Shown here: positions 10,477-17,316 of the stretch, piece after piece | Layout: every line of letters starts with the position of its first letter | Position numbering within the stretch: the first letter of the stretch is position 1 | Origin: Woeseiaceae bacterium | Lineage (GTDB): Bacteria; Pseudomonadota; Gammaproteobacteria; Steroidobacterales; Woeseiaceae | Assembly (NCBI GenBank): GCA_030066735.1 | Contig: JASJBB010000054.1 | Span: 1-35,217 of the forward strand | Reading direction: 5' to 3' | DNA length: 35,217 nt | The notes under the pieces: model-generated | What the model saw: the letters and a program-made list of their open reading frames with translations, nothing else | What the model was told of the DNA's origin: nothing | Databases searched by the model: none | Translations under genes and position numbers: made by a program

Positions 10477-10746
10477 TTGATCCAGGACACACTACATCTG
10501 ACCTACAAGGCTGCGCGACGCATCGTGATCGCCGTCGTAGGCGCGACCGTCGTGCTGCTCGGCATCGTCATGATCGTGACGCCCGGACCTGCACTGGTCG
10601 TGATCCCGGTTGGGCTCGCCATCCTGGCGATCGAATTCACCTGGGCCCGGCGCTGGCTGAAGCGGCTGCGCGAGACCATCAGCAACGGCATGGCGAACAG
10701 TCGCGCCCGGCGCGCGGAGAATCATCGCGATCGCGTGCAGAACTGA
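10477..10746 (+). CDS. PGPGW-like small membrane protein
   Basis: 89 residues. Two adjoining hydrophobic stretches (IVIAVVGATVVLLGIVMIV and ALVVIPVGLAILAIEF) flank TPGPA, which sits where the family has PGPGW; the following GLAILAIEFTWARRWLKRLR is the conserved second helix and basic tail of this family (putative transmembrane PGPGW proteins). The final Trp of the name motif is not present here. Function is unknown. The start is TTG at 10477 with GGGAAG 7 bases upstream; there is no in-frame ATG before residue 1 or at a suitable place inside. The stop codon directly abuts the A-tract of the terminator serving the convergent small gene. Confidence 0.85.
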   Translation: MIQDTLHLTYKAARRIVIAVVGATVVLLGIVMIVTPGPALVVIPVGLAILAIEFTWARRWLKRLRETISNGMANSRARRAENHRDRVQN

Positions 10747-10818
10747 AAAAAGAAAGGCGCCGGAGTGCTGAATTCGATTGCGATCCAGCGGGCCTCCGAC
10801 ACGGAGGACTCCGGCGCC
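10746..10818 (-). terminator. Branched Rho-independent terminator of the sigma54 peptide transcript
   Basis: An 11-bp perfect stem, GGCGCCGGAGT at 10756-10766 with ACTCCGGCGCC at 10808-10818, encloses a second perfect hairpin (CCTCCG-ACA-CGGAGG, 10793-10807) that abuts the outer stem. Read on the minus strand the stem is followed by TTTCTTTTTT (10755-10746), so the element ends leftward transcription. The enclosed arm could make it a branched structure. On the plus strand no T-tract follows, but it may also slow rightward transcription from the PGPGW-like gene. Confidence 0.8.
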
Positions 10819-10951
10819 CAGGATTAAACGGCAGGGGGGTGCCGCCGGGCTTCCATGCCCTTAATCCACCAGCATTCCTGCTGGCATCGATGGCGACCGG
10901 GCGATCAGGCATTTCGGGGGGAGAGACTCCTGCGCCCAGCCACCAGAGTCG
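10819..10951 (-). other. Structured, apparently non-coding 3' untranslated region
   Basis: Between the stop of the small secreted-peptide gene and its terminator lie about 130 bases with no credible frame. Two perfect small hairpins are visible: CGGCA-GGGGGG-TGCCG (10829-10844) and CCAGCA-TTCC-TGCTGG (10869-10884). Together with the terminator, over half of the roughly 410-base transcript would be non-coding and folded. It could hold a 3'-derived small RNA, but I see no direct evidence of one. Confidence 0.4.
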
Positions 10952-11101
10952 TTAATTTGAGGTCGAAACCTCGACTTTCAAGTTGCCCTCGAGGAGTTCA
11001 ACCTCATCGGCGAGCGCCGTGCCGACCGCAGCGGAGACCGCGAACAGCACGATCAGAACGCCGATCAGCGCCAGGCTGTTTTCCAGCTTTCCAGATTTCA
11101 T
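10952..11101 (-). CDS. Sigma54-controlled exported micro-peptide, 49 residues
   Basis: ATG at 11101 (minus) to TAA at 10952. Residues 1-9 (MKSGKLENS) are a charged N-region, 10-27 a hydrophobic core (LALIGVLIVLFAVSAAVG), and TALA ahead of Asp32 is a good signal-peptidase I site. Cleavage would release only DEVELLEGNLKVEVSTSN, 18 mostly acidic/beta-prone residues; if uncleaved it would be a small membrane protein. A strong ribosome binding site (AAGGAA, 7-8 bases before ATG), a GG-N10-GC sigma54 promoter upstream and a Rho-independent terminator downstream frame it as a complete single-gene unit. It is divergent from the PAS-sigma54 activator gene. I recognise no family. Confidence 0.72.
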   Translation of the reverse strand: MKSGKLENSLALIGVLIVLFAVSAAVGTALADEVELLEGNLKVEVSTSN

Positions 11102-11169
11102 GATCACATTCCTTAGTTAGCGAACGCCGCCCAAGCGACGTGTAATGTTTGATACCACTAGTACCTAGT

Positions 11170-11185
11170 GCACAGGCCGTGCCAA
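11170..11185 (-). promoter_or_regulatory. Sigma54 (-24/-12) promoter for the micro-peptide gene
   Basis: On the minus strand TTGGCACGGCCTGTGCAC contains TGGCAC and TGCA with the invariant GG (11183-11182) and GC (11171-11170) exactly ten bases apart. Consensus is TGGCACG-N4-TTGCA; the only difference in the core is G for the first T of TTGCA. Transcription would start near 11158, leaving a leader of about 57 bases before ATG 11101. The divergent gene encodes a sigma54-dependent activator, which strengthens the call. Confidence 0.75.
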
Positions 11186-11232
11186 CCTTGGAATTGCATT
11201 AAAAACAGCAGGTTATAGGAAAAACAGTGATT

Positions 11233-11283
11233 ACGAAATTTCGTAAATAACGGAAAATCGTGTTGAAAGTCACGAGATTCCGT
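11233..11283. promoter_or_regulatory. Three copies of a 12-bp palindrome: candidate enhancer/operator of the sigma54 activator
   Basis: ACGAAATTTCGT (11233-11244, perfect, within a 16-bp perfect palindrome 11231-11246), ACGGAAAATCGT (11250-11261) and ACGAGATTCCGT (11272-11283) share the form ACGRRAWWYCGT with small departures; starts are 17 and 22 bases apart. They lie about 75-125 bases upstream of the predicted sigma54 transcription start, the usual enhancer range, and the third sits between the -35 and -10 of the activator's own promoter. A dimeric Fis-type helix-turn-helix, as encoded next door, binds such palindromes. Confidence 0.65.
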
Positions 11284-11290
11284 ATATACT
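11263..11290 (+). promoter_or_regulatory. Sigma70-type promoter of the PAS-sigma54 activator gene
   Basis: TTGAAA (11263-11268), a 16-base spacer, and TATACT (11285-11290). The predicted start of transcription falls at about 11297, which is the A of the ATG, so the mRNA may be leaderless. Two of the three palindromes overlap or flank these hexamers. Confidence 0.5.
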
Positions 11291-11296
11291 GCGGCG

Positions 11297-13102
11297 ATGC
11301 TCAAACCCGACGACTACCAGTGGCTGTTTCGCAAGTCACCGGCGATGGCGACGTCCATCGGCGAGGATGGCAGCTACCAGGACGTCAACGATGCGTTCCT
11401 CGCGCGGCTCGGCTATGACCGTGCCGACATGGTCGGCCGCAAGCCCAGTGAATTCGTGACCCCGGAATCCGCGCGCCGCATCGAGGAAGAATTCCTGCCG
11501 ACCCTGCGACGCACGGGCAAGCTGGAGAACAAGCCGATCGGTTTCGTCGCCTCGTCGGGCGAGGTTGTCGACTGCACGACGAATTCCATCGTGGAATACG
11601 ATCCGGACGGCACGTTCCTGCGCACGATCGCGTTGTACCGGGAATACGGCGACCAGGCGCGCGCCAACTACAAGTACCGCGAGCTGTACCGAACGACACC
11701 GGCGATGCTGCACACCGTCGATGGCGACGGCAACATCGTCACGGTAACCGACCGTTGGCTGGACAAGCTCGGCTATTCGCGGGACGAAGTGCTCGGCCGA
11801 CCGATCACGGACTTTTTCACCGAGGCGGAGCGCCGCCGCTTTGCGGGCGGTCACATGCAGGAGCTGCTCGAGCGCGGCGATTACGACAACGAGGACCGCC
11901 AGGTCGTCACCAAGGACGGCCGGGTGCTGGACCTGGTTGTTTCCGCGATCGGTCACCGCGATGCCGGCGGCAAGGTCGATCGCTTGCTGGTCGCGTCGAA
12001 GGACGTTACCGAGCGCCTTCGGACCGAGCGCAAGCTGCGCAACGCCCTGGCCGAGAACGCCCGCCTGCGCGAAGAACTCGAGCGAGAGCGCGATTACCTG
12101 CGCGAAGAAGTCAATGTCGCGATGAACTTCGGGCGCATCGTCGGCACGAGTCCGGCGCTGCAAAGAATGCTCAAGCAGGTCGAGGCTGTCGCCCAGACGC
12201 CCGCCAGCGTTCTCTTGCTGGGCGAATCCGGCGTTGGCAAGGAACTGGTGGCGCATGCCATCCACGGGCAAAGCGCGCGCGCCGACGGGCCGCTCGTCAA
12301 AGTCAACTGTGCGTCGATCCCGAAGGAGCTGTTCGAAAGCGAGTTCTTCGGCCATGTCAAAGGCGCGTTCACGGGCGCCCATCGAGACCGCGTGGGCCGC
12401 TTCCAACTGGCTGACGGTGGCACACTCTTCCTCGATGAGGTCGGCGAAATACCGCTGGAACTGCAGGGCAAGCTGCTGCGCGTATTGCAGGAGAGCGAAT
12501 TCGAGCGGGTGGGCGACGACGTGACCCGGTCGGTCAATGTGCGTGTTATCGCCGCGACCAACCGCGATCTCGAGCAGCTGATCGTCGACGGCGAGTTCCG
12601 CGAAGACCTGTTCTACCGCCTCAGCGTATTTCCCGTCGATGTGCCCCCGTTGCGTGAGCGCGGCGACGACATCGTGCAGCTGGCGCAGCACTTTCTCGAA
12701 CGCGCGGCGGCCGATTTCGGCCGCCCCGAGCTGACCTTGACCCGTTCCCAGGCTGAAAAGCTGTTCGAGTACGACTGGCCGGGCAACGTCCGGGAGCTCA
12801 AGAACGTCATCGAACGAGCGGTGATTCTGTCACCGGGCAATGTGCTGCGGCTGGACCTGTCCATGCCGAACGTGGCCCAGTACGAGCCGCGCCCGGCGAA
12901 CGTTGCATCCGCCGAACCGGACGGCATACTCACCGAGAAACAGATGCGCGATTTCCAGAAAAAAAACCTGTTGAACGCCCTGCGCGAGACCAACTGGCGC
13001 GTATCGGGACCGGATGGCGCGGCCGAGCTGCTCGGCGTCAAGCCGACCACGCTCGCCGACCGGATACGCGCGTTCGGACTCAGGAGACCGGCACGGCAAT
13101 GA
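11297..13102 (+). CDS. PAS-PAS-AAA+ sigma54-dependent transcriptional activator
   Basis: 601 residues. Domains in order: PAS 1 (about 8-110, [20 protein letters not shown] and [17 protein letters not shown]), PAS 2 (about 130-245, [19 protein letters not shown]), a coiled-coil linker rich in Arg/Glu (about 245-275), the AAA+ sigma54-activation domain (about 283-515) and a Fis-type helix-turn-helix ([21 protein letters not shown], about 575-598). Walker A is GESGVGKE (about 309-316), the sigma54-contacting loop GAFTGA is intact (about 356-361), and Walker B is [10 protein letters not shown]. There is no receiver domain, so the signal is sensed directly by the PAS domains; ligand unknown. Gene overlaps dacB by 4 bases (ATGA). 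No clear ribosome binding site precedes the ATG, and the -10 element ends 6 bases before it. Confidence 0.93.
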
Positions 13103-14511
13103 ACCGGGTGTTGCTCGCATTTGCCCTGGCTACCTGCGCCGCGGCGCCTGTCGCTGCCGCCGACCTGCCGCCGGCCGTGGCCAGCAGGCTGAGCCACCGC
13201 AATGTACCGCCCGAATCCACGAGCATTCACGTCCAGGACCTGGAGTCGGGAGAGGTGCTGGTCGACTGGAACGCGACGCTGCCGCGCAACCCTGGCTCCA
13301 CGATCAAGATGCTGACGACCCTGGCGGCGATCGACCTGCTGGGACCGACGTATACCTGGCAGACCGACATCTTCGCCCTCGGCCCGGTTGTGGACGGGAC
13401 GCTGCAGGGCGACCTGCTGCTGCGCGGCCAGGGTGACCCGTTCCTGGTGACCGAGCGGGTCTGGCAAATGTTGCGCCGCATACGGCAGGCCGGCATCGAC
13501 AAGATCGAAGGCGACCTGTTGCTGGACGACAGTTACTTCGACGTTGGTGACTACGATCCGGGCGCATTCGACCGCCAGCCGCTGAGGGCGTACAACGTCG
13601 CGCCCAACGCGCTGCTGATGAATTACAAGGTCGTGCGTTACTGGTTCGCACCTGCCGAGGAATCCGGCAAGGTCGACATCTGGACCGACCCGCCGCTGGA
13701 TAACCTCGAGATCGAAAACCGCCTCCGGCTGATCGCAGGTCCCTGCCGCGGTTACCAGCGTGGCATTACCGTAACGACCGACGAGCAGGTGAGCCGCATG
13801 ACGTTCAGCGGCGCGTTCCCGAGCGGCTGCGAGCGCTATGCCATGGATCGGGCCACGCTCAGTCACCGCAGTTTCGCTTACGGCTTATTCCGGTCGATGT
13901 GGCACGAGTCGGGCGGCGCGTTCGAGGGCGGCTGGGATGTAGCGACCGCGCCCGAGGACAGGGAGCCGGTCGTCGAGTTTCGTTCGCTGCCGCTCGCCGA
14001 TGTCATCACGCGCGTCAACAAGCACAGCAACAACGTCATGGCGCGGCAATTGCTCTACACCCTGTCCGCCGAAATTCTCGGTCCGCCCGGCACCGAGGCC
14101 GGCGGCCGCAAGGTTGTCGCCGACTGGTTGCGCAGCAAGGGGCTCGAGTTTTCCGAGCTGGCGTTCGACAATGGTGCGGGCCTGTCGCGCGATGCGCGGA
14201 TTACGGCTGCGGATTTTGCCGCCATGCTCGCGTTCGCCTGGCGGCAGCCGTACATGCCCGAGTACGTCTCGTCATTGTCGCTGGCCGGGCTGGACGGCAC
14301 TTTGCGGTACCGGATGCGCGAGGGGCCGCTCGAGGGATCGGCGCACCTGAAGACCGGCTCACTCGACCACGTTGCTGGTATCGCGGGATACCTGCAGGCG
14401 CGATCGGGGCGCAGGTTCAGCGTGGTCGTGTTGCAAAATCACACCGACATCCACCGCGGTTACGGCGACGAAACCCAGGAAGCGTTGCTGCGATGGCTCT
14501 ATGAGCAATAG
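13099..14511 (+). CDS. dacB: D-alanyl-D-alanine carboxypeptidase/endopeptidase (PBP4 type)
   Basis: 470 residues, the size of E. coli PBP4. A signal peptide ([21 protein letters not shown]) directs it to the periplasm. The three serine penicillin-recognising motifs are present: SxxK as STIK (about residue 67-70), SxN as SNN in [11 protein letters not shown], and KTG in [11 protein letters not shown]. The insertion between SxxK and SxN typical of class C PBP4 enzymes is present. It trims stem peptides and cuts cross-links of peptidoglycan. The ATG overlaps the stop of the sigma54 activator (ATGA), an arrangement that ties dosage of a wall hydrolase to that regulator. A YgiM-like SH3 protein follows after 40 bases. 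Confidence 0.95.
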
Positions 14512-14551
14512 GCTGTAGTAGACTCTCGCAGGATCGTTTGGGAGAACATCG

Positions 14552-15136
14552 ATGCGCAAGATGCTTTGGCTGCTGCTGTTGCCGGTAGCGGCGTTTGCAG
14601 AGACCGCCTACGTCACCGATACGCTGCGGCTCGGCCTGCACCAGGCCGCCGACACGAGCGACCGGCCGTTCCGCAATCTCGAAAGCGGGCAGGAAATGGA
14701 GGTGCTGTCGCGAACCCAGTACTACGCCAATGTCCAGCTGCCGGATGGCACGCAGGGCTACGTCAAGGCCGGCTTCCTGGTTAGCGACAAACCCGCGAAA
14801 CTCATCGTCGCCGAGACCCAGGCCGAGGTCGATCGGCTCACCGGGGAACTCGAGGAAACGCGGCAGGCGTTCGCGGCGCCGGCGGCGACGATCGATTCGC
14901 TGCGCGCACAGAACAACGACCTGCAGGCGCGGCTGGACACGAGCGAAACCAGTGCCGCCGAGCTGGCCGAGGAGAATGCGGAGCTACGCGAGCGCCAGGC
15001 GCAGAACCGCCTGCTTGTCCCGCTGCAGTGGGTGGGCGGCGTGGCGGCAGCCTGCCTGGTCGGTGGACTGCTGTTCGGCCTGTGGTGGACGGACTACCGC
15101 AGCCGCAAGCGCCACGGCGGCATTCGAATTTACTAG
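14552..15136 (+). CDS. YgiM-like SH3 domain protein with C-terminal membrane anchor (TIGR04211 type)
   Basis: 194 residues. Order: signal peptide (MRKMLWLLLLPVAAFA), a bacterial SH3 domain at about residues 18-75 (AYVTDTLRLGLH, MEVLSRTQYYANVQLPDGTQ, GYVKAGFLV), a coiled coil at about 85-150 (repeated Glu/Leu heptads, SAAELAEENAELRERQAQN), a membrane segment (WVGGVAAACLVGGLLFGLWW, about 159-178) and a short basic tail. This is exactly the YgiM/TIGR04211 architecture; SH3b domains generally bind wall peptides, but the role of YgiM is not settled. GGGAG lies 8 bases before ATG. It follows dacB on the same strand, consistent with a shared wall-related operon. Confidence 0.9.
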   Translation: MRKMLWLLLLPVAAFAETAYVTDTLRLGLHQAADTSDRPFRNLESGQEMEVLSRTQYYANVQLPDGTQGYVKAGFLVSDKPAKLIVAETQAEVDRLTGELEETRQAFAAPAATIDSLRAQNNDLQARLDTSETSAAELAEENAELRERQAQNRLLVPLQWVGGVAAACLVGGLLFGLWWTDYRSRKRHGGIRIY

Positions 15137-15152
15137 CTGAACACAGAATGGT

Positions 15153-15179
15153 GAGGCGGCCTCGTAGTCAGGCCGCCTC
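15153..15179. terminator. Hairpin between the convergent SH3 and cysB genes
   Basis: A perfect 10-bp inverted repeat GAGGCGGCCT / AGGCCGCCTC with a 7-base loop. It overlaps the last codons of cysB (Glu-Ala-Ala-stop). No U-tract follows on either strand, so it is a strong stem but an incomplete intrinsic terminator; it could block 3' exonucleases for both convergent transcripts. Confidence 0.5.
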
Positions 15180-16178
15180 GATAATGTCGTCATTGCAGCC
15201 GCCGCGAACCGGCAGGCGCGCATCCTTGAACAGGTTGTCGATTTCGTTCTGGGTACGCACATGCCGGGTCTTCTCGAGTTGGTCCGCCGTGATGTGCGGT
15301 GCGAACAGCTGCACGAAGTCGAGCATGTAGCGCCGCAGCACGACGTCCTTGCGAAAGCCGATCCACGTCGTGCTGCGCGGGAACAGGCCTTCCGCCTCCA
15401 GCGCGGCCAGGTCTTTGCCATCGGAACAGTCGTCGGCCATGCTTGCGACGATGCCGACACCGAGTCCCATGCGCACGTAAGTCTTGATGACGTCGGCGTC
15501 GCGCGCCGTGAACACGACGTCGGGATCGAGTCCCTGGTCGGCAAAGGCGCGTTTCAGCGATGACTGGCCGCCAAAGCTGAAGACGTAGGTGACGAGAGGA
15601 TGCTCGGCGAGATCCTCGAGCGTTACCTTGCGGTCCAGCGTCGTCAGCTCATGGTCCTTGGGGACGATGATCTTCCGGTCCCAGTGATAACTGGGAACGA
15701 GCAGCAGGTCGCCGAAAAGTTCGTGAGACCCGGTGGCGATGGCGAAGTCGATCTCGTTCGCCTGTACCATGTCGGCGATCTGTTCCGACGTGCCCTGGTG
15801 CAGGTTAAGGCTGACGTGGGGAAAGCGTTCGCGAAACTCGCGGATGACATCCGGCAGCACGTAGCGAGCCTGCGTATGGGTCGTGGCGATCGATAACGTG
15901 CCTTCTTCTTCGTGGTAGTAGTCCGAGGCGAGGCTGCGGATATTCTCGACCTCCGCCATGATCAGGCGTGCGCGCTCGATCACCTGTTCGCCGGCAGCGG
16001 TGATGCTGCCGAGGCTCTTTCCCTTGCGCACGAAGAGCTGCAACCCGAGTTCTTCCTCGAGCAGTTTGAGTTGTTTGCTCACCCCCGGCTGAGACGTGTA
16101 CAGCCTTTCGGCCGCTGCAGTTATATTCAGCCCGTTGTCGACGATCGCAAGCAAATACTTCAGTTGTTGTAGCTTCAT
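15168..16178 (-). CDS. cysB: CysB-type LysR family regulator
   Basis: 336 residues against 324 for E. coli CysB. The N-terminal winged helix-turn-helix is the family form (MKLQQLKYLLAIVDNGLNIT, then AAERLYTSQPGVSKQLKLLE), and the effector domain follows with the conserved opening TLSIATTHTQARYVLP, typical of CysB/Cbl. CysB activates sulfate assimilation and cysteine biosynthesis genes on binding N-acetylserine. It diverges from a cysteine synthase gene with 184 bases between, containing a palindromic LysR-type box, so direct control of that neighbour is plausible. The last residues (GGCNDDIIEAA) are encoded by part of a hairpin. Start at 16178 matches the family N-terminus. Confidence 0.95.
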   Translation of the reverse strand: MKLQQLKYLLAIVDNGLNITAAAERLYTSQPGVSKQLKLLEEELGLQLFVRKGKSLGSITAAGEQVIERARLIMAEVENIRSLASDYYHEEEGTLSIATTHTQARYVLPDVIREFRERFPHVSLNLHQGTSEQIADMVQANEIDFAIATGSHELFGDLLLVPSYHWDRKIIVPKDHELTTLDRKVTLEDLAEHPLVTYVFSFGGQSSLKRAFADQGLDPDVVFTARDADVIKTYVRMGLGVGIVASMADDCSDGKDLAALEAEGLFPRSTTWIGFRKDVVLRRYMLDFVQLFAPHITADQLEKTRHVRTQNEIDNLFKDARLPVRGGCNDDIIEAA

Positions 16179-16262
16179 TCTGAAAGTTGCGTCGTTGCGT
16201 CTCTTAATGTGACCGCTCGCCCCGGCATGGGTTTCACCCGAGTGCTGAAAATTCGGCTACAT

Positions 16263-16277
16263 ATAACACATGGTTAT
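16263..16277. promoter_or_regulatory. Palindromic T-N11-A LysR-type box between cysB and cysK
   Basis: ATAAC-ACATG-GTTAT is a perfect 5-bp-arm palindrome matching the classical LysR box (T-N11-A, T at 16264, A at 16276). It lies 85 bases upstream of cysB and 86 upstream of cysK, midway. Likely bound by the adjacent CysB-type protein, though CysB sites are often degenerate. Confidence 0.5.
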
Positions 16278-16303
16278 GTCGCCAGAAACAAGCGGTGTAT
16301 GCT
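16274..16303 (+). promoter_or_regulatory. Possible cysK promoter
   Basis: TTATGT (16274-16279), an 18-base spacer and TATGCT (16298-16303). Both hexamers are imperfect, as expected of an activator-dependent promoter, and the -35 overlaps the right arm of the LysR-type palindrome. The predicted leader would be about 53 bases. Confidence 0.35.
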
Positions 16304-16362
16304 GACCGTAGTGCAATCGAACTACCATTCGTCAACGCGAAAAGAACAACGAGGGCTGAAGG

Positions 16363-17316
16363 ATGATCTACGACAACATTTTGCAGACCATCGGTAACAC
16401 GCCGATCGTACGCCTCAATCGCATGGGTCCCGACCATGTCGACCTGTACGTCAAGGTCGAATCTTTCAATCCGATGGCGTCGGTCAAGGACAGGCTCGCT
16501 TACGCCATCATCAACGACGCTGAAGAAAAAGGCGAACTCGCGCCAGGACAAACCGTCATCGAAGCCACATCGGGTAACACCGGCATCGCGCTGGCGATGG
16601 TGTGCGCCGCGACGGGCCACCCCTTTGTTGCGACCATGGCGGACTCTTTCTCGGTCGAACGGCGCCTCGTCATGCGTGGGCTCGGCGCCAGGGTCATTCT
16701 CACGCCGGCGGCGGAACGCGGCAGCGGCATGGTGAAAAAAGCGGAGGAGCTGGCCGCAAAGCACGGCTGGTTCCTGGCCCGGCAATTCGAGAATCCCGCG
16801 AACCCGGACTTTCACGCGTGCACAACCGGGCCGGAGATACTGAGCGACTTCGCCGGCCGGCGCCTCGACTACTGGGTAACGGGCTACGGCACCGGCGGCA
16901 CGATGAGCGGCGCGGGCCGCACGATCAAGGCGGCAAGACCCGGCGTCACCATCGTTGCGACCGAGCCCGATGCGGCCATGTTGCTGGCCGGCAAAGAATG
17001 GAGTCCGCACAAGATCCAGGGCTGGACACCGGACTTCATTCCCGACGTGCTCGATCGCGAGGTGTTCGACGAACTCCGGGCCGTCTCCGACGATCGCTCC
17101 ATCGAAGTCTCGCGCGAGCTGGCCCGCAAAGAGGGCATCTTTACCGGGATCTCGGCCGGCGCGACCCTGGCCACAGCGCTGGATGTTGCGGCGGAGGCGG
17201 CGGAAGGGTCGGTCATCCTGGCGATGTTGCCGGACACCGGGGAACGATACCTGTCGACTCCCCTGTTCGAGGGTGTGCCCGAAGGCTCGGACGACGAGTG
17301 GCTGGCAGCGCTATAA
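16363..17316 (+). CDS. cysK: Cysteine synthase (O-acetylserine sulfhydrylase)
   Basis: 317 residues, fold-type II PLP enzyme making cysteine from O-acetylserine and sulfide. The PLP Lys is in MASVKDR (Lys42), the substrate-carboxylate loop is TSGNTG (about 69-74), and the phosphate-binding loop is GYGTGGT (about 175-181). The C-terminal region keeps ISAGAT and PDTGERYLST. Sequence features fit the CysK/CysM group; the split between A and B types (sulfide versus thiosulfate preference) cannot be fixed by eye, so the symbol is provisional. The ATG has GAAGG 1-2 bases upstream and GAGGGC 8-9 bases upstream, the latter likely the true ribosome binding site. Divergent from cysB, which probably regulates it. 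Confidence 0.93.
   Translation: MIYDNILQTIGNTPIVRLNRMGPDHVDLYVKVESFNPMASVKDRLAYAIINDAEEKGELAPGQTVIEATSGNTGIALAMVCAATGHPFVATMADSFSVERRLVMRGLGARVILTPAAERGSGMVKKAEELAAKHGWFLARQFENPANPDFHACTTGPEILSDFAGRRLDYWVTGYGTGGTMSGAGRTIKAARPGVTIVATEPDAAMLLAGKEWSPHKIQGWTPDFIPDVLDREVFDELRAVSDDRSIEVSRELARKEGIFTGISAGATLATALDVAAEAAEGSVILAMLPDTGERYLSTPLFEGVPEGSDDEWLAAL

Follow-up and report, generated by a model that had tools for sequence, protein, structure and literature searches.

A predicted sigma54-dependent RNA with C-rich hairpin loops, usually fused to a small protein, divergent from a PAS-domain activator in Woeseiaceae

Analyses of a 35,217-nucleotide (nt) stretch of DNA from a Woeseiaceae bacterium (contig JASJBB010000054.1 of assembly GCA_030066735.1; hereafter, the window) indicated that a gene for a PAS-domain activator of sigma54-dependent transcription has, on the opposite strand, a divergent transcription unit whose conserved product is predicted to be a structured RNA. 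The window is one whole contig of its genome (G000), which is approximately 85% complete. We propose, with a probability of roughly 0.7, that the unit yields a sigma54-dependent regulatory RNA that works like sX13, a small RNA (sRNA) of Xanthomonas, and that in most lineages its transcript also encodes a small protein, either membrane-bound or secreted. The initial annotation of the window had the activator driving a peptide that acts at the envelope. The unit of activator, palindromes and promoter proved to be conserved and the small open reading frame (ORF) to have the marks of a coding sequence, whereas the conserved product appears to be a structured RNA of which that annotation made no mention.

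The activator gene (11297-13102, plus strand) encodes a protein of 601 residues in which Pfam and NCBIfam profiles identified two PAS stretches, a Sigma54_activat domain, an AAA lid and the Fis-type helix-turn-helix HTH_8 (PF00158, E 1.8e-71; PF02954, E 3.3e-05). The translation contains GAFTGA and the Walker motifs, LFLDEVGE among them, as in bacterial enhancer-binding proteins, and the PAS-PAS-AAA+ assignment with an intact GAFTGA given in the initial annotation was upheld. The gene for sigma54 itself, rpoN, was identified in the same genome (PF04552, E 4.1e-71).

Between the activator and the divergent ORF we identified a -24/-12 sigma54 promoter, TGGCACGGCCTGTGCA, at 11184-11169 on the minus strand, with a predicted transcription start near 11158. 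Three ACG-N6-CGT palindromes lie between this promoter and the activator, with centre-to-centre spacings of 22 and 17 bases. Palindrome 1 (11272-11283; ACGGAATCTCGT on the minus strand) is a candidate autorepression site, and palindromes 2 (11250-11261; ACGATTTTCCGT) and 3 (11233-11244; ACGAAATTTCGT) are predicted upstream activating sites, the latter being the closest to the sigma54 promoter. Two of the three were also recovered among the inverted repeats of the window. Both the GG-N10-GC promoter and the three palindromes had been called in the initial annotation.

The minus-strand -24/-12 element was present in all members of three sets of activator loci (42/42; 40/40 at an identity of at least 57%; 12/12). 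These sets overlap, and after removal of duplicates there were 80 distinct loci, 79 of which had the element on the expected strand, compared with 14 of 16,000 base-shuffled windows. The sole miss, L099, showed the element when the locus was anchored at the first match position. Loss of the element or of the ORF from relatives that keep the activator-dacB pair had been named at the outset as grounds for abandoning the proposal; the promoter was not lost in the relatives. At least two palindromes were found in 73 of the 80 loci and the exact triple in 52. With one mismatch allowed, the triple occurred in 36 of 60 genomes, once per genome and by its coordinates always beside the activator, and a reversed-pattern control gave one match in total. 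Six of the 42 activator-bearing genomes (G001, G022, G032, G038, G050 and G055) had no match to the triple at this setting. Judged from this conservation, the PAS-type activator, its palindromic enhancer sites and the divergent sigma54 promoter are one conserved unit, from which sigma54-dependent expression of the divergent transcript would follow. Because the triple occurs once per genome and always at the divergent promoter, the activator looks dedicated to it, as had been suggested; the search covered triple sites, so further targets at single or paired palindromes elsewhere are possible.

A near-full-length activator with at least 52% identity was present in 42 of the 60 relatives searched: 36 of the 37 genus members, with the window's genome counted in, and 6 of the 23 remaining genomes. 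A class-wide search at E<=1e-150 identified it in 3 of 369 genomes, all three in the order of the window. In another lineage, the locus of a 47%-identical activator (L114:2400-3060) likewise had a sigma54 element on the divergent side, together with a small ORF for a signal peptide, a hairpin with a TTCCCCCT loop and a terminator. Given this locus, the divergent unit may predate the set of orthologues analysed here.

The activator has a predicted sigma70-type promoter of its own (TTGAAA N16 TATACT; 11263-11290, plus strand). Its -10 box ends 6 nt 5' of the ATG (11285-11297), a proximity which suggests that the activator mRNA may be leaderless, and a simple pattern for this arrangement (CGT-ATA...-start) was matched upstream of the activator in 52 of the 80 distinct loci. 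Palindrome 1 lies within the spacer of this promoter and is, from its position, likely to be a site at which the activator represses its own gene.

The divergent transcript of the window is predicted to be approximately 400 nt long and to carry the ORF, a folded non-coding part of about 130 nt and then a branched terminator, all on the minus strand. Hairpin 1 (10888-10951) has the loop UCUCUCCCCCC, with six C residues at 10921-10916. It is accompanied by hairpin 2 (10868-10885), whose loop contains GGA, hairpin 2b (10846-10867; stem GGGC/GCCC, loop AUGGAA) and hairpin 3 (10828-10845; loop CCCCCC at 10839-10834). The terminator (10745-10819) is GC-rich, branched and of the Rho-independent type, and comprises a long hairpin (10819-10755) and then UUUCUUUUUU, with a U tract. 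A simple terminator scan, whose loop limit was 8 bases, did not list this hairpin. The 207-nt 3' part of the transcript had a folding energy of -105.8 kcal/mol (z = -5.04).

Across the genus of the window, the 3' half of the transcript had hairpins with C-rich loops at both ends, usually with GGA loops between them, and showed compensatory base changes. These were studied in an alignment (A1) of 30 of the 36 genus loci, with rows picked for hairpin 3; L021 (cut by a contig end) and L028, L030 and L036 (no match to the hairpin-3 pattern) were left out, and L034 and L035 matched and were omitted. The alignment contained three covarying helices, in which 93.8% of cells paired, compared with 21.6-44.5% when the partners were slid. 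In 38 cells both sides had changed, whereas the shuffles averaged 12.2 (0 of 500 shuffles). Hairpin loops with a run of four or more C residues (C4 loops) averaged 1.97 per aligned sequence and 0.24 in shuffles; at least four C residues were present in the first loop of 30/30 sequences and in the last loop of 29/30. Beyond the alignment, 35 of the 36 genus loci and 28 of the 32 from elsewhere had at least one predicted C4 loop 3' of the ORF, compared with 140 of 720 and 113 of 640 shuffles, respectively (18-19%). The count of 28 is left as computed and scores L108 as lacking the loop, a chance 81-residue ORF call having masked its hairpin. When a four-pair stem was required at the loop, 24 of the 32 non-genus loci retained it.

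A model built for this element (R1), whose match in the window spans 10828-10951, found matches in 69 of the 296 genomes examined from the order, among them 57 of the 63 that belong to the genus. Each match was at one place, except in G023 (two places, at contig ends), and no further copies within a genome were found at E<=0.01 under the stricter filters that apply in large scans. Twelve of the 69 places were fetched, and all twelve were at the activator, with the promoter. One of these twelve loci (L187), from genome G571, which is filed in another family, f15, looked like the genus type and had a small ORF identical to that of a Woeseiaceae metagenome-assembled genome (L085), which is likely a matter of binning or labelling.

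The ORF has 49 codons, from an ATG at 11101 to a stop ending at 10952 on the minus strand, and is preceded by AAGGA. Its product would have a hydrophobic helix or signal peptide ending in ALA and a poorly conserved tail of 18 residues. The divergent gene with signal peptide, ribosome-binding site and terminator described in the initial annotation was thus found as described, the terminator being the branched hairpin with U tract. In one set of loci, all 56 of 56 had a related ORF with a start codon, a purine-rich ribosome-binding site and a hydrophobic N-terminus, under search criteria that required a hydrophobic run. Pfam gave no convincing match for the small proteins; a homologue search with a long form returned 84 proteins, of which none had a Pfam domain and nearly all of those named were called "hypothetical protein". 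For the helix part, the ratio of non-synonymous to synonymous differences (pN/pS) over all pairs was 0.51 in frame, compared with 1.03 and 1.65 in the other frames; it was 0.55 in frame over 565 less diverged pairs, and these values are rough because synonymous differences were near saturation. Third codon positions were the most variable (0.62, against 0.41 and 0.27). Based on the difference between frames, the ORF is, as far as codon patterns can tell, truly coding where present and under purifying selection.

These data might suggest that the activator exists for an exported or membrane micro-protein and that the 3' hairpins merely terminate and stabilise its mRNA, an explanation with further backing from a C-terminal LDLDIxL...TS motif common to the longer forms of the protein. 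The remainder of the protein evidence does not favor it. The tail after the AxA site had a pN/pS of 0.81, and by this measure the exported tail is the least conserved part of the protein within the genus. The ORFs ranged from 30 to 115 residues, and nine of the 56 (30-37 residues) ended at or just past the helix. In addition, stabilising hairpins need no C-rich loops, and these have been retained.

The strongest single reason for regarding the RNA as the core product came from genus g301 (family f15), which keeps the regulatory apparatus and the C-loop hairpin and has no shared ORF. In two of its loci (L105 and L108), where no plausible ORF was found, the transcripts measured from the predicted +1 through the U tract were 173 and 170 nt long; their folds had z-scores of -5.45 and -3.35, respectively. 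L105 has a CUCCCCC loop on an 11-pair stem, and the same loop is present in L108. Used as a query against the 296 genomes of the order, the L105 sequence identified three genomes, all g301: one with a sequence identical to L105, one with a sequence identical to L108 and a third with a distinct sequence. The three distinct sequences of approximately 170 nt have no ORF in common; insertions of one to three C residues break any frame, and two changes in the stem are compensatory. All the same, g301 keeps the promoter, the three palindromes (the third with one mismatch), the CUCCCCC-loop hairpin and the terminator. A second C-rich stretch (ACCCC-CGTCUUCCCC), with a C run of 4 to 7, was observed 5' of the C-loop hairpin in L105, L108 and L201. 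The ORF-less case raised our confidence in the RNA reading from approximately 0.6 to 0.7, and we consider the micro-protein explanation unlikely, though it is the one we would turn to next. A conserved mature secreted peptide was not borne out, given the tail pN/pS, the nine ORFs that lack the tail and the absence of a shared ORF in g301; the initial annotation had put an exported peptide, about 18 residues long, at the centre of the system, and in this it was not supported.

The GGA loops raise another explanation, that the RNA titrates CsrA, with paired GGA hairpin loops capturing a CsrA dimer as in RsmY and CsrB. A GGA hairpin loop was predicted in 26 of the 30 aligned genus sequences and two such loops in 19, whereas 10.4% of shuffles had any; CsrA was identified in 15 of 20 genomes searched, including that of the window. 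CsrA capture by these loops may occur in the window's genus. Outside the genus, however, GGA loops were patchy (9 of 32 loci) while the C-rich loops persisted, and CsrA was not detected in three draft genomes that carry the locus (G003, G004 and G008). RNAs of the CsrA-titrating class typically carry more than two GGA loops; the present RNA resembles the RsmY/CsrB type in having GGA in hairpin loops and differs in having up to two only, not conserved outside the genus. As a general account of the RNA, CsrA titration seems to us improbable.

We favor instead a regulatory RNA acting through its C-rich loops. GlmY and GlmZ, two other sRNAs, act through RapZ and glmS and are not known to have C-rich loops, and GlmY is under sigma54 control. 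The closest systems in logic to that proposed here are GlnZ, Qrr1 and sX13. The sRNA sX13 is highly structured, with apical loops of four or five C residues, and G-rich motifs near start codons are its proposed targets (PMC3771888). Like the window RNA it is gammaproteobacterial and structured with apical C-rich loops; it differs in lying at the polA locus and in having three C-rich loops, and the available portion of the source describes no ORF or sigma54 control for it (PMC3771888). Membership in the sX13 family was not indicated, as the locus is different and Rfam gave no family at E<=1 on the minus strand, its single match at that level being a chance one on the other strand (whether Rfam has an sX13 entry was not checked). 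Over the whole window Rfam gave no match above the gathering score. GlnZ, an sRNA derived from the 3' untranslated region (3'UTR) of the sigma54-driven glnA mRNA, resembles the present case in that one enhancer-binding-protein-controlled sigma54 promoter gives both a protein and a 3'UTR regulatory RNA (PMC9731577). In contrast to the PAS one-component activator here, its control is by the two-component NtrBC system; it is Hfq-dependent, is cut out by RNase E from the large mRNA of an enzyme, and has no C-loop array (PMC9731577). The Qrr sRNAs, activated by LuxO or SypG, are likewise sigma54-dependent, with a TGGCA-N7-TGC promoter and multiple upstream activating sites, and in V. fischeri a Qrr RNA is shared by a second activator; unlike the RNA described here, they are controlled by response regulators and, as far as that source extends, are ORF-less (PMC10162802). 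GlmY and GlmZ share an envelope-related small RNA logic (PMC7073468). We found no report on sRNAs in Woeseiaceae, or on the divergent locus, in the open-licence full-text literature.

The window RNA has the stable stems with apical loops of four to six C residues that are typical of C-rich-loop sRNAs, and its transcript joins a coding ORF, a conserved RNA element and a terminator of its own, as in 3'UTR-derived sRNAs and dual-function RNAs. Several observations nonetheless weigh against our interpretation. The structure was taken from the alignment on which it was then assessed, A1, whose rows had been selected by hairpin 3. Two of the covariation measures were weak, at 229 of 500 shuffles for further pair types and 8 of 500 for pairs with changes on both sides. 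Three loci (L041, L042 and L127) had no C4 loop in the minimum-energy fold. Purifying selection on the ORF implies that most lineages require the protein. No conserved target emerged: among 30 checked of 36 GGGGGGAGA-N3-9-ATG sites, recurrence was limited to a single gene shared by two genomes from the same genus. The reversed pattern gave 7 sites against these 36, an unfair control in that purines before ATG are ordinary. The neighboring genes were unsupported as targets, with G-rich ribosome-binding-site matches at 0 of 27 activator genes, 0 of 22 dacB genes and 6 of 25 SH3 genes. Lastly, Hfq was present in 18 of 20 genomes searched and was not found in the 85%-complete genome of the window.

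The genes 3' of the activator bear on a further explanation, in which activator, dacB and SH3 gene form one envelope-response unit for cell-wall stress that is served by the divergent RNA. In the window, dacB (13099-14511, plus strand; PBP4, a D-Ala-D-Ala carboxypeptidase; Peptidase_S13/TIGR00666 match) overlaps the end of the activator gene by ATGA at 13099 and is followed by a gene for a TIGR04211 SH3-domain membrane-anchored protein (14552-15136, plus strand), an arrangement that agrees with the initial annotation. This order was found in most Woeseiaceae loci examined; some other loci end too early for gene order to be read (e.g., L018, L026, L081 and L127). Neither the ATGA overlap nor the activator-dacB distance was conserved across the loci of relatives. 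In nine loci of other families that keep the divergent unit (L037-L040, L042, L100-L102 and L109), dacB was not found beside the activator within the fetched flank, a VTT-domain gene intervenes in some members of the genus, and no sigma54 element was seen for dacB itself, none having been sought. The proximity of activator and peptidoglycan genes, originally described as coupling, was seen in the window and most Woeseiaceae loci examined, and the linkage of dacB is lineage-specific. We regard a cell-wall operon as the least probable of the explanations considered, and a very improbable one.

Several other features of the neighborhood were observed. The VTT-domain protein encoded between activator and dacB in several genus members (e.g., L086:4797-5507) is a DedA/TVP38-like membrane protein. 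An unclassified protein of approximately 120-145 residues is encoded 3' of the activator in four loci where dacB was not found (L101:4941-5306, L109:5030-5398, L038:261-662 and L100:4724-5158); the four sequences looked alike by eye, and a Pfam search of the L101 copy gave no match. Downstream of the SH3 gene in the window is a CysB-type regulator divergent from cysK (15168-17316), and a CysB-like gene is near the activator locus in many Woeseiaceae relatives.

For bacterial enhancer-binding proteins as a class, response to a cue, oligomerization at enhancer sites and formation of a sigma54 open complex are established. Based on this, the cytoplasmic PAS-domain activator would sense a cue and bind the three palindromes as an oligomer, and the resulting sigma54 open complex would drive a single divergent transcript, approximately 400 nt in the window and approximately 170 nt in g301, where the ORF is missing. 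Since palindrome 1 lies inside the sigma70 promoter of the activator, its occupation would probably repress the activator. The conserved product would be a folded RNA that ends at a Rho-independent terminator and bears one or two hairpins with C-rich loops; these loops most likely kiss or pair with G-rich ribosome-binding sites in trans, as those of sX13 do. In most lineages the same transcript would also encode the small membrane or secreted protein, making it either the source of a 3'UTR-derived sRNA, like GlnZ, or a dual-function RNA.

More tentatively, and with doubts that outweigh our confidence, we speculate that a one-component PAS switch acts through this single promoter to produce an anti-Shine-Dalgarno C-loop RNA which retunes many genes with G-rich ribosome-binding sites, the leaderless activator mRNA offering it no such site to block. 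Such a system would run deep in Woeseiaceae and related families, with the RNA gene having arisen, or stayed, without an ORF in one genus and being fused elsewhere to a fast-evolving membrane micro-protein, a series from plain sRNA to dual-function RNA.

Woeseiaceae are little-studied marine sediment bacteria, and in them a sensor is apparently dedicated to one transcript that has at its core a C-rich-loop RNA, a type through which other genes are silenced. The transcript occurs without an ORF, with the bare helix or with a full-length small protein while its regulator stays unchanged, a series in which the gain and loss of coding sequence on a regulatory RNA could be studied. If our interpretation is correct, it suggests that C-rich-loop riboregulators under sigma54 control exist in a lineage distant from Xanthomonas, and it would provide, in a group mostly known from metagenomes, a family of RNAs whose activator, promoter and enhancer sites are named and which could be switched on at will.

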